Below, one piece after another: positions 40,223 to 43,520 of a stretch of 64,000 nucleotides of DNA (position 1 is the stretch's first letter; each line of letters starts with the position of its first letter). Made by a program: the position numbers and the translations under genes. The DNA lies in contig CP143625.1 in the NCBI GenBank assembly GCA_036362785.1, positions 62,001 through 126,000 on the forward strand, written 5' to 3'. The DNA comes from a beta proteobacterium MWH-UniP1. GTDB taxonomy: Bacteria > Pseudomonadota > Gammaproteobacteria > Burkholderiales > Burkholderiaceae_A. The notes under the pieces are model-generated. The model had not been told where the DNA came from. It saw nothing but the letters and a program-made list of their open reading frames with translations, and did no database searches.

Positions 40223-41107
40223 TTAAGACAGCTGGGACCTGAGCTTCTTTAACGCCGCTGATTCAATCTGTCGCACCCGTTCAGCCGAAATGCCATAGCG
40301 ATCGGCGAGCTCTTGCAGGGTTGTGCCGCCGCCCTCGTCTTCATCGCGTAGCCAGCGGGCAATCATGATTTCCCGGCTGCGCCCATCCAGCGAGTTAAGT
40401 GCCCGCAGCAGGCCCTCCGACTGAATGGTCTGGGACTGTTGGGCCTCAACCACCTGGGCGGGGTCCGCATCTGGCGCTTCCAGATAGGCAATCGGGGCAA
40501 ACGACTCTTCGCTATCGTCCACTCGGGATTCGATCGCGATATCACCGCCCGACAGCCGCTGGTCCATTTCCAAGACTTCCTTGGGGGCGACATCGAGCTG
40601 CTTGGCAATCACCTTCGCCTGGTCGTCGGACACGCTGTCTTGTACGCCAAGCGACTGCTTAATCGAGCGTAGATTGAAAAAGAGTTTGCGCTGGGCCTTG
40701 GTCGTGGCGACTTTGACCAGCTGCCAGTTGCGCAGGATGTATTCGTGGATTTCGGCCTTGATCCAGAGCATGGCAAAAGAGACCAGCCGTACCCCCCGGG
40801 TGGGGTCAAAGCGCTTGACCGCCTTCATCAGGCCGATATTGCCTTCTTGGATTAGGTCGGCCTGGGCCAGACCGTAGCCCTTGAACTGGCGGGAAACAGA
40901 TACCACCAGACGTAAGTGAGAGAGCACTAACTCACGGGCAGCGTCAATATCATTGAGGGTTCTAAAGCGGAGTGCGAGCTCTTCTTCCCGCTCGGGCGTG
41001 AGCATAGGAAACTGCTGGACGGCCCGTACATAAGCGTCCAGATTGCCGCCTGGCGAGAGTGAGAGCGTGGCCAGGGCGTGGTCAGCAGCGAAAGCTTGAG
41101 CCGTCAT
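40223..41107 (-). CDS. rpoH: RNA polymerase heat-shock sigma factor RpoH (sigma-32)
   Basis: Directs transcription of heat-shock genes. The 294-residue product (ATG at 41107 behind AAGGAGGG) has region 2 with SHLRLVVSVSRQF, DLIQEGNIGLMKAVKRFDPT and FAMLWIKAEIHEYILRNW, then the RpoH box QRKLFFNLR that separates it from RpoD, and a region 4 helix-turn-helix TLQELADRYGISAERVRQIE. The longer frame to 41374 runs past the operator and is not credible. A perfect CIRCE element lies 32 bases upstream, so HrcA probably represses it. Confidence 0.96.
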   Translation of the reverse strand: MTAQAFAADHALATLSLSPGGNLDAYVRAVQQFPMLTPEREEELALRFRTLNDIDAARELVLSHLRLVVSVSRQFKGYGLAQADLIQEGNIGLMKAVKRFDPTRGVRLVSFAMLWIKAEIHEYILRNWQLVKVATTKAQRKLFFNLRSIKQSLGVQDSVSDDQAKVIAKQLDVAPKEVLEMDQRLSGGDIAIESRVDDSEESFAPIAYLEAPDADPAQVVEAQQSQTIQSEGLLRALNSLDGRSREIMIARWLRDEDEGGGTTLQELADRYGISAERVRQIESAALKKLRSQLS

Positions 41108-41139
41108 GCAAAACCCTCCTTGTTCCGGATAGACCAAGT

Positions 41140-41166
41140 TTAGCACTCTCGGTTCCCGAGTGCTAA
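41140..41166. promoter_or_regulatory. CIRCE operator (HrcA binding site), perfect consensus
   Basis: TTAGCACTC at 41140-41148 and GAGTGCTAA at 41158-41166 flank a 9-base spacer, exactly the TTAGCACTC-N9-GAGTGCTAA consensus of the HrcA repressor. It sits in the 142-base divergent region: 32 bases from the rpoH start and 83 from the decarboxylase start. On the rpoH side a TTGACT (41190-41185) could serve as a -35 whose -10 would fall at the edge of the operator. No hrcA, groESL or dnaK gene is in the window. Confidence 0.93.
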
Positions 41167-41249
41167 GGCCCCAGGCACCACTTAAGTCAAGGCGGGGCCG
41201 GGGTTTTTGTCCTACTATCGCCTCTCTGTTTTTGGGAAGGGCCCAGCCA

Positions 41250-43520
41250 ATGAAGTTTCGTTTTCCAGTGGTCATCATTGATGAGGATTTTCGTTCTGAG
41301 AATGCCTCGGGTTTGGGGATTCGTGCCTTGGCCGATGCCCTGGAAAAAGAAGGCGTCGAGGTCTTGGGCGTCACCAGTTATGGCGACCTGACCCAGTTCG
41401 CCCAGCAGCAAAGCCGTGCATCCGCCTTTATTTTGTCGATTGATGACGAAGAGTTCGGCTCTGGCTCGAAAGAAGACACCGATGCCGCGCTGAAAAATCT
41501 GCGGGCCTTTGTGGGCGAGCTGCGTTTCCGTAATGCTGAAATCCCCATTTATATCTATGGCGAGACCAGAACATCGCGCCATATTCCCAATGATGTGCTG
41601 CGTGAGCTCCACGGCTTCATTCATATGTTTGAAGACACCCCAGAGTTTGTGGCCCGACATATCCTGCGCGAAGTGAAGTCATATATGGATTCACTTGCGC
41701 CACCGTTTTTCAGGGCGCTACTGGATTACGCCCAAGACGGTTCTTACTCGTGGCACTGCCCCGGGCATTCCGGTGGTGTGGCGTTTTTAAAGTCCCCCGT
41801 GGGTCAGATGTTCCACCAGTTTTTCGGCGAGAACATGCTGCGTGCAGACGTGTGTAATGCAGTGGATGAATTGGGCCAGCTGCTAGATCACACTGGGCCT
41901 GTGGCTGCATCCGAGCGAAACGCGGCGCGAATCTTTAATGCCGACCATTGTTTCTTTGTGACCAATGGCACATCGACATCCAACAAGATTGTCTGGCATT
42001 CATCGGTTGCGCCTGGTGACATCGTGGTGGTGGACCGCAACTGCCACAAGAGTGTGCTGCACTCGATCATCATGACCGGTGCTATTCCCGTGTTTCTTAT
42101 GCCCACGCGTAATCACCTGGGCATCATCGGGCCGATTCCTTTAGAGGAATTTAAGCCCGAGAACATCCGCAAGAAAATCGAAGCCAATCCATTTGCCCGC
42201 GAGGCACTGAAAAACGGCAATGCCAAGCCCCGCATTCTCACCATCACGCAAAGCACGTATGACGGTGTTCTTTATAACGTTGAGATGATCAAAGACGTGC
42301 TGGGTAGCTGCGTGGACACCCTTCACTTTGACGAGGCATGGATTCCTCACGCGGCCTTTCATGATTTCTACAAAGACATGCACGCGATTGGCAAGGACCG
42401 GCCCCGCCCACAAGACCCCCTGATCTTTTCGACGCAGTCAACGCACAAAGTACTCGCTGGTCTGTCGCAGGCCTCTCAAGTCTTGGTGCAGGAATCCGCG
42501 ACCCGCAAGCTCGATCGCGACATGTTTAACGAGGCGTATCTGATGCATACGTCGACCAGTCCCCAGTACGCCATCATCGCTTCATTGGATGTGTCGGCGG
42601 CCATGATGGAGCCCCCAGGTGGCACGGCCCTGGTTGAGGAATCCATTATTGAAGCGTTGGATTTTCGTCGGGCCATGCACAAGGTGGACCAAGAGTTTGG
42701 TGAAAACGATTGGTGGTTCCAGGTCTGGGGCCCGGAAGATGTGACCTCTGACAGTAATGGCATGGCTAACCGCAATGAGTGGGGGCTTGATCCAGAAGAT
42801 GAGTGGCATGGGTTTGATGGGCTAGTGCCCGGCTTTAACATGCTGGACCCCATTAAGGCCACTGTGGTGACACCGGGCCTGAATATCAAGGGCGAATTCG
42901 ATAAGCGCGGTATTCCCGCATCGATTGTGACCAAGTATCTGGCCGAACACGGTGTGATTGTGGAGAAGACGGGTCTGTATTCCTTCTTCATCATGTTCAC
43001 CATCGGCATTACCAAGGGTCGCTGGAATACGCTACTCACCGCCTTGCAGCAGTTTAAAGATGATGTAGATAAGAACCAGCCACTCTGGCGCGTACTGCCC
43101 GAGTTCTGTGCCAAGCACCCACGCTATGAGCGGGTGGGTTTGGCAGATCTTTGCCAGCAGCTGCACGACATTTACAAAGCCAACGATATTGCACGGCTCA
43201 CCACCGAAATGTATCTGTCGAACATGGAACCTGCCATGAAGCCAGCAGATGCGTTTTCATGCCTGGCCCATCGCAAGACTGAGCGAGTACCCATTGATGA
43301 ATTAGAAGGCCGTATCACCACCAGCCTGCTGACCCCTTATCCACCAGGCATTCCCCTGTTGATTCCGGGTGAGCGGTTTAATAAAACTATTATTCGCTAC
43401 CTGCAATTTGCACGTGACTTTAACGGCAAGTTCCCTGGCTTTGAGGCCGATATTCATGGCCTGGTGCAGCAGGAAGTCGATGGCGTGAAGCAGTACTTTG
43501 TCGACTGCGTCGCGAATTAA
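41250..43520 (+). CDS. Orn/Lys/Arg decarboxylase, biodegradative (AdiA/CadA-type fold)
   Basis: A 756-residue PLP enzyme that decarboxylates a basic amino acid, consuming protons. The N-terminal wing domain (FRFPVVIIDEDFRSENASG) is followed by the PLP fold with WHCPGHSGG, FVTNGTSTSNKI, the LHFDEAWIPHA aspartate block and the Schiff-base lysine in STQSTHKVLAGLSQ, then a C-terminal domain. Arginine is the likeliest substrate by resemblance to arginine decarboxylases used in Burkholderiales, but lysine or ornithine cannot be excluded. ATG at 41250 follows GGGAAGGG. Divergent from rpoH and shares the CIRCE region; a 15-bp inverted repeat follows. Confidence 0.88.
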   Translation: MKFRFPVVIIDEDFRSENASGLGIRALADALEKEGVEVLGVTSYGDLTQFAQQQSRASAFILSIDDEEFGSGSKEDTDAALKNLRAFVGELRFRNAEIPIYIYGETRTSRHIPNDVLRELHGFIHMFEDTPEFVARHILREVKSYMDSLAPPFFRALLDYAQDGSYSWHCPGHSGGVAFLKSPVGQMFHQFFGENMLRADVCNAVDELGQLLDHTGPVAASERNAARIFNADHCFFVTNGTSTSNKIVWHSSVAPGDIVVVDRNCHKSVLHSIIMTGAIPVFLMPTRNHLGIIGPIPLEEFKPENIRKKIEANPFAREALKNGNAKPRILTITQSTYDGVLYNVEMIKDVLGSCVDTLHFDEAWIPHAAFHDFYKDMHAIGKDRPRPQDPLIFSTQSTHKVLAGLSQASQVLVQESATRKLDRDMFNEAYLMHTSTSPQYAIIASLDVSAAMMEPPGGTALVEESIIEALDFRRAMHKVDQEFGENDWWFQVWGPEDVTSDSNGMANRNEWGLDPEDEWHGFDGLVPGFNMLDPIKATVVTPGLNIKGEFDKRGIPASIVTKYLAEHGVIVEKTGLYSFFIMFTIGITKGRWNTLLTALQQFKDDVDKNQPLWRVLPEFCAKHPRYERVGLADLCQQLHDIYKANDIARLTTEMYLSNMEPAMKPADAFSCLAHRKTERVPIDELEGRITTSLLTPYPPGIPLLIPGERFNKTIIRYLQFARDFNGKFPGFEADIHGLVQQEVDGVKQYFVDCVAN

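Follow-up and report, generated by a model that had tools for sequence, protein, structure and literature searches.

Organisation of the rpoH-decarboxylase locus

The window, by which we mean the whole 64-kb stretch of DNA analysed here, carries the gene for the heat-shock sigma factor, rpoH, back to back with a divergently oriented gene for a large Orn/Lys/Arg decarboxylase. The DNA around the two gene starts contains a predicted operator of the repressor HrcA (CIRCE), a ribosome-binding sequence and several candidate promoter elements of differing quality:

40223 to 41107, minus strand: rpoH, heat-shock sigma factor, 294 aa (TIGR02392, 380.4 bits, cut-off 323.1)
41114 to 41121, minus strand: Shine-Dalgarno-like sequence of rpoH, AAGGAGGG, identified by reading the sequence
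41129 to 41133, minus strand: tentative sigma-E-type -10, TCTAT, partner of the -35 in the operator loop
41137 to 41145, minus strand: extended -10-like element of rpoH, TGCTAAACT, made of an operator half site and the three following bases
41140 to 41166, no strand assigned: predicted CIRCE, a perfect inverted repeat with a 9-base loop, kept upstream of rpoH
41150 to 41156, minus strand: tentative sigma-E-type -35, GGAACCG, in the operator loop (-10 at N16, 3 mismatches in all)
41211 to 41218, plus strand: conserved promoter-like block of the decarboxylase, CCTACTAT, 44 bases past CIRCE, present in 7 of 7 genomes of the genus
41250 to 43520, plus strand: Orn/Lys/Arg decarboxylase, 756 aa, divergent neighbour (PF01276, 502.7 bits; domains over nearly the full length)
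41253 to 41259, minus strand: competing sigma-E-like -35, GAAACTT (GAAACTT-N15-TCCCA, 2 mismatches in all, offset -93)

The sequence TTAGCACTC-TCGGTTCCC-GAGTGCTAA at 41140-41166 matches CIRCE with 0 mismatches and lies 32 bases from the rpoH start codon (41107, minus strand) and 83 bases from the decarboxylase ATG (41250), which bears out the preliminary description of this DNA in both the position and the perfection of the operator. It is the sole CIRCE match in the window at ≤3 mismatches (shuffle mean 0.01). The complete genome (G000; 1 contig, 2,049,113 bases) contains 2 sites at this threshold, both perfect, of which the second precedes groES-groEL; the reversed control pattern gives 0 matches in the whole genome, and about 3e-5 perfect sites would be expected by chance at equal base frequencies. 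Chance origin of the site at rpoH is ruled out by the shuffles, the reversed control and this expected count, and the placement of TTAGCACTC-N9-GAGTGCTAA near a gene start is that of a member of the HrcA/CIRCE regulon.

Conservation of the operator and its association with hrcA

A single copy of hrcA is present in the genome as an open frame at G000:C1:681823-682479 (PF01628, 212.9 bits, cut-off 22.2); its neighbours, from a reading of their translations, are NAD kinase and ferrochelatase, with grpE and dnaK 4-5 kb downstream. The preliminary description had proposed that HrcA represses rpoH, a proposal that a genome lacking hrcA would have contradicted; with one hrcA present, this objection does not apply. 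The conserved inverted repeat that it anticipated at the rpoH of relatives is also found. Our comparison set comprised 61 genomes (our own and 60 relatives), all with some RpoH match, from which G031 and G054 were not counted as having rpoH, their matches showing 28-29% identity, as for other sigma factors; 55 of the remaining 59 have CIRCE at ≤2 mismatches upstream of rpoH, including the family members G008, G014 and G016 with 0, 2 and 1 mismatches. Genome-wide, the pattern occurs at ≤2 mismatches in 57/61 genomes and the reversed control in 4/61.

Loss of the operator largely accompanies loss of the repressor. G043 and G058, with 8 and 5 mismatches respectively in CIRCE at rpoH, are the only genomes without hrcA among the 44 with completeness of 90% or more and contamination of 5% or less; G034 and G050 have hrcA and yet 4 mismatches at rpoH, and in G018, a genome 70% complete, CIRCE is present at rpoH and hrcA was not found. 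Among 80 named genome loci, 50 have CIRCE at rpoH at ≤3 mismatches. We searched for hrcA in 50 of the 80, a set that took in every one of the 30 genomes lacking CIRCE, while each of the 30 genomes outside it has CIRCE. We found both hrcA and CIRCE in 19, hrcA only in 2, CIRCE only in 1 and neither in 28 (Fisher 1.3e-10, in a test which ignores shared ancestry and on a sample biased by the choice of all 30 CIRCE-less genomes). The exceptions are L057 (Xanthomonas) and L082, which have hrcA without a standard CIRCE, and L048, which shows the reverse. Conservation at the orthologous gene (55/59) and loss together with hrcA (19/2 versus 1/28), with these exceptions, are what is expected of a regulon member, and the predicted control of rpoH by HrcA is well supported by these comparisons.

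Such control is known in kind and common in this bacterial group, so rpoH is mostly an expected member of a known regulon. A 2003 survey of beta-, gamma- and epsilon-proteobacteria by Permina and Gelfand reportedly found CIRCE at rpoH in beta-proteobacteria. That survey is cited in the consulted parts of a report on Geobacter sulfurreducens, where an HrcA-rpoH link was predicted from CIRCE upstream of rpoH (PMC545781), the same operator sequence and predicted control as here; those parts give the site and its position and do not mention overlap with sigma-E or extended -10 elements. Neisseria is described as being without HrcA (PMC3135505). We found no paper on HrcA at a betaproteobacterial rpoH in the open-licence literature searched.

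Two further observations concern diverged operators. Xanthomonas-like genomes with hrcA have CAGTC-N9-GACTG in place of CACTC-N9-GAGTG at rpoH (L052:4904, L057:4904, L078:4942): a diverged palindrome around this core is found in L057 and L082, about 10 bases before rpoH in the latter, with one such half only in L052, which suggests a changed HrcA specificity. In G058 (locus L180, G058:C2:184919-189722) a relict CIRCE with 5 mismatches lies between intact promoter-like elements, the rpoH region retaining GGAACTT-N16-TCATA and TGATAAAAT despite the decayed operator; in G102, of the same genus, CIRCE is still perfect and stands behind GAACTT.

Promoter elements built around the operator

The operator at rpoH commonly continues into an extended -10 element. 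We examined 76 diverse rpoH regions, which include some Gammaproteobacteria, after excluding loci without CIRCE at ≤2 mismatches, exact repeats and regions with short upstream sequence (minimum 60 bases for the extended -10 count and 100 bases for the sigma-E-type count), and treated the family of the window (f1, 26 genomes) separately. The three bases after CIRCE are NAT in 69 of the 76 loci (AAT 30, TAT 28, CAT 9, GAT 2), completing TGCTAAnAT, an extended -10. AT stands at the matching positions of 1 of 30 groES operators (p 2.6e-18 versus the rpoH operators; 31 groES stretches were taken, and L167, which held no groES, was dropped). When rpoH upstream regions are aligned on CIRCE, the opposite flank of the palindrome has no comparable extension, so this is not a longer symmetric operator. 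In family f1, NAT is present in 16/26 genomes, comprising 6/7 of the window's genus, 10/11 of its sister genus and 0/8 of the third genus; within its genus the window is the exception, with ACT against AAT in the other six genomes, and a strict sigma-70 scan of 41080-41300 returned no promoter. In the third genus (L196, L198, L202, L204, L205), which lacks NAT, one operator half is GACTGC or GCAGTC, and TATAAT extends into the first base of the operator in the majority of the 8 genomes, which looks like a shift of the -10 to the opposite side of the operator.

Sigma-E-type promoters have GGAACTT as their -35 and TCTnA as their -10. In many loci GGAACTT lies 16-17 bases before the operator, which puts TCTnA at the junction of the first half and the loop, and an order-wide list has GAAC at this distance before CIRCE in 141 of 399 genomes (none for the reversed control). 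In a search reaching 100 bases upstream and 60 bases downstream of the operator, we found GGAACTT-N15-17-TCTnA at ≤2 mismatches in 54 of the 76 loci (200 shuffles: mean 1.1, maximum 6) and at ≤1 mismatch in 38 (shuffle mean 0.1); at ≤2 mismatches it is absent from the other 22. Forty-five of the 54 sites begin at -17 to -12 and thus overlap CIRCE, and in 5/76 loci the element is far upstream (offsets -58 to -31). The -10 moves along with the -35, which argues for a real promoter: with GGAACTT at -12, TC occupies loop bases 3-4 in 5/5 loci versus 3/71 others (p 3e-6), and with GGAACTT at -16 or -17, A is the third loop base in 24/28 versus 12/48 (p 2.7e-7). Where the order-wide list has GAACTT with a 9-base gap after GAAC, TC forms the first loop bases in 11 of 11 rows, counted by eye, although loops at other registers often start with TC too. 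Upstream of groES operators, GGAACTT-like words occur in 2/30. One genome of the order, G399, has three CIRCE behind GAAC words (C6:246678, C21:21268, C65:3117), two of them identical in sequence.

Within the window's family a sigma-E-type site at ≤2 mismatches is found in 14 of the 26 genomes (shuffles mean 0.3). The genus of the window no longer has the upstream GGAACTT; there the operator loop reads, on the rpoH strand, GGGAACC(T/G) in 6/7 genomes and TTGAACCT in the seventh, with GAACC in 7/7. Paired with a -10 at N16-17, this loop word gives a sigma-E-like site at ≤2 mismatches in 3/7 genomes and at 3 mismatches in 2/7, including the window, and no site in 2/7. It is possible that the sigma-E-type promoter has moved into the operator loop in this genus. 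The competing site within the beginning of the decarboxylase gene (offset -93) outscores the loop site and counts against it, and in the window both the extended -10 and the sigma-E-type elements are weak. The genome does encode rpoE (TIGR02939, 299.5 bits, cut-off 236.15), followed by ORFs that read as rseA-, rseB- and mucD-like from their translations; no good sigma-E-type site stands before this rpoE gene.

While the geometry of these elements in relatives can be read directly from the DNA, we infer from it both sigma-E activity and the promoter that the window's rpoH would use. On balance we lean slightly towards the following reading for Betaproteobacteria and some hrcA-bearing Gammaproteobacteria. 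CIRCE would be part of the rpoH promoter, forming an extended -10 of sigma-70 type and overlapping a sigma-E-type promoter, such that one repressor could gate both the housekeeping and the envelope-stress routes that lead to sigma-32. Over evolution the sigma-E-type promoter would have shifted as a unit, -35 together with -10, between several positions relative to an operator that stayed in place (offsets -58 to -12, most of them -17 to -12); in the window's genus its -35 may now lie within the loop (+10). The apparent interlock of promoter and operator, with its sliding registers across the group, is the fresh part of this reading, and is clear in relatives and weak in the window.

Sigma-E-dependent rpoH promoters themselves have precedents: E. 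coli rpoHP3 and the Bordetella bronchiseptica rpoH homologue fam, the latter under sigma-E control in vitro (PMC3490749), and an RpoE-dependent rpoH promoter in Burkholderia pseudomallei (PMC5994319). These have an upstream GGAACTT-type -35 and TCTnA-type -10, as do the 54/76 loci here. The text of PMC3490749 does not mention HrcA; here the element overlaps CIRCE in 45/76 loci, and in the window it is weak. None of the consulted portions of open-licence papers (including PMC545781, PMC3135505, PMC3490749, PMC5994319, PMC2194791, PMC11764788 and PMC3224663) describes CIRCE interlocked with promoter elements of the sigma-E and extended -10 types, which is weak evidence of novelty given that most subscription papers were outside this scope.

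Alternative readings of the element and its neighbourhood

The elements at the operator might not be promoters at all, the flanking bases instead widening the contact of HrcA or being inherited without function. We think this rather unlikely. In its favour, the genomes share ancestry and a few families supply some of the counts, the -12 offset in particular being represented by 5 loci of which those named to genus are Comamonadaceae; moreover, groES operator loops are also conserved in the window's genus, where sigma-E-like sites are as patchy as described above (3/7 at ≤2 mismatches, absent in 2/7), and the genome's own rpoE lacks a good site. Against this, NAT is one-sided and rare at groES operators (1/30), GGAACTT at -12 is matched by TC at loop bases 3-4, and B. 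bronchiseptica SigE transcribes fam in vitro (PMC3490749). The same geometry bears on another reading, in which the palindrome works not at the DNA level as an operator but at the RNA level, as a leader hairpin of rpoH that affects stability or senses temperature. Its perfect symmetry and its position 32 bases ahead of the start codon would suit such a role, and CIRCE would be transcribed in the 5/76 loci with a far upstream sigma-E-type element; however, with the sigma-E-type -10 within the operator in 45/76 loci and the NAT element ending 3 bases after it, transcripts would be expected to start inside or after CIRCE, and loss of the palindrome accompanies loss of hrcA. A transcribed CIRCE hairpin was judged unlikely on promoter-element geometry, and as an account of the palindrome it strikes us as very improbable indeed.

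A bidirectional operator, through which HrcA would repress both rpoH and the decarboxylase and so tie polyamine or pH state to protein stress within the family, is a further possibility, which we consider improbable. The divergent arrangement is preserved in 26/26 genomes of family f1, across three genera, and in the sister genus as few as 11 bases separate CIRCE from the promoter-like block before the decarboxylase (G015), so that an effect on the enzyme's gene is least improbable there. Elsewhere, however, 0/33 other relatives with the rpoH locus have the decarboxylase beside rpoH, with about 1.5-2 kb of flank covered. The gene does stand there in 2/80 named loci, for which flanks reached 5 kb at most; the operators of these two, L003 and L077, are identical to those of the family members G009 and G018. 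In none of 26 decarboxylases from outside the family does CIRCE accompany the gene (best 6-9 mismatches in 500 bases). Within the window's genus, CCTACTAT is found in 7/7 genomes at 30-37 bases before the ATG and, with variable spacing, 44-73 bases past the operator; 8/11 genomes of the sister genus have a similar block, and 0/8 of the third. The longer stretch TTTTGnCCTACTATC at 41205-41219 is likewise kept before the decarboxylase in 7/7 genomes of the genus. We dropped shared control of the decarboxylase as the main reading on the family-limited neighbourhood, the absence of CIRCE elsewhere and the separate conserved block, the same observations that speak against the HrcA gating proposed in the preliminary description. 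The decarboxylase most likely has its own promoter and is probably outside the HrcA regulon, and its link to rpoH is probably one of shared neighbourhood only.

Nor was the enzyme established as one of acid-resistance type, as had been suggested. It belongs to the expected fold family, and its nearest solved chain, 6q6i, is named "Biodegradative arginine decarboxylase"; its score against the curated arginine decarboxylase model PRK15029 is 624.5 against a cut-off of 1167, and the lysine and ornithine models are also below cut-off. A match to the decarboxylase is present in 56/61 genomes, which makes a housekeeping role likelier.

A predicted two-tier heat-shock circuit

We return to the reading of the element as an HrcA operator of rpoH and to its place among the heat-shock genes of the genome. 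Before groES, CTTGAA-N15-CCCTAT, a sigma-32-type motif with 1 mismatch, stands directly before CIRCE, and 23 of the 30 groES operators of the comparison have such a motif; perfect CTTGAA-N14-CCCCAT sites stand before grpE and dnaK, neither of which has CIRCE. No sigma-32-type site at ≤1 mismatch occurs in the 64-kb window, and autoregulation of rpoH by sigma-32 was rejected in the absence of CTTGAA-N11-16-CCCCAT at ≤3 mismatches on the rpoH strand of 41001-41400. Since CIRCE is found only at groES and rpoH, and sigma-32-type motifs at groES, grpE and dnaK, HrcA would govern groES and rpoH directly and grpE-dnaK via sigma-32, in a feed-forward loop. This distribution fits the two-tier circuit of the preliminary description, whose placing of HrcA over sigma-32 is supported by hrcA, conservation and coupling, while its extension to the decarboxylase is not supported.

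Heat is established to draw GroEL away from other HrcA proteins. From the operator, the hrcA gene, their conservation and coupling, and the sigma-32-type motifs, which are all observed, we infer HrcA binding, repression and a corresponding GroEL feedback here. HrcA on CIRCE would repress rpoH, and bound HrcA would cover its core promoter, because the rpoH-proximal operator half is part of the extended -10 and the sigma-E-type promoter overlaps the operator in many relatives. On heating, titration of GroEL from HrcA would cause the repressor to leave CIRCE and rpoH to be transcribed; sigma-32 would then drive grpE-dnaK, and groESL would respond both to sigma-32 and to loss of HrcA from the second CIRCE. 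Taken together, the element is very probably an HrcA operator that represses rpoH and feeds a sigma-32 circuit, with the decarboxylase a neighbour most likely served by its own promoter.

Should this hold, heat-shock control by a repressor and heat-shock control by a sigma factor would here be connected in series. A single short piece of DNA governing sigma-32 supply would then bring together misfolding in the cytoplasm, signalled by HrcA (and by GroEL, provided that the known feedback operates here), and envelope stress, signalled by sigma-E. The interlock makes a sharp prediction, namely that single base changes should uncouple each input, and lineages like G058, in which hrcA is gone but the promoter elements persist, amount to a natural experiment. 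Double control of groESL by RpoH and HrcA is described for Agrobacterium (PMC11764788), and the groES of our genome likewise has a sigma-32-type motif directly before CIRCE; unlike in that comparison, the repressor site here also stands at the sigma-32 gene, giving the predicted feed-forward arrangement. Finally, grpE and dnaK of this genome are adjacent, yet each has its own perfect sigma-32-type motif (G000:C1:686642 and 687265; L206:10643 and 11266).
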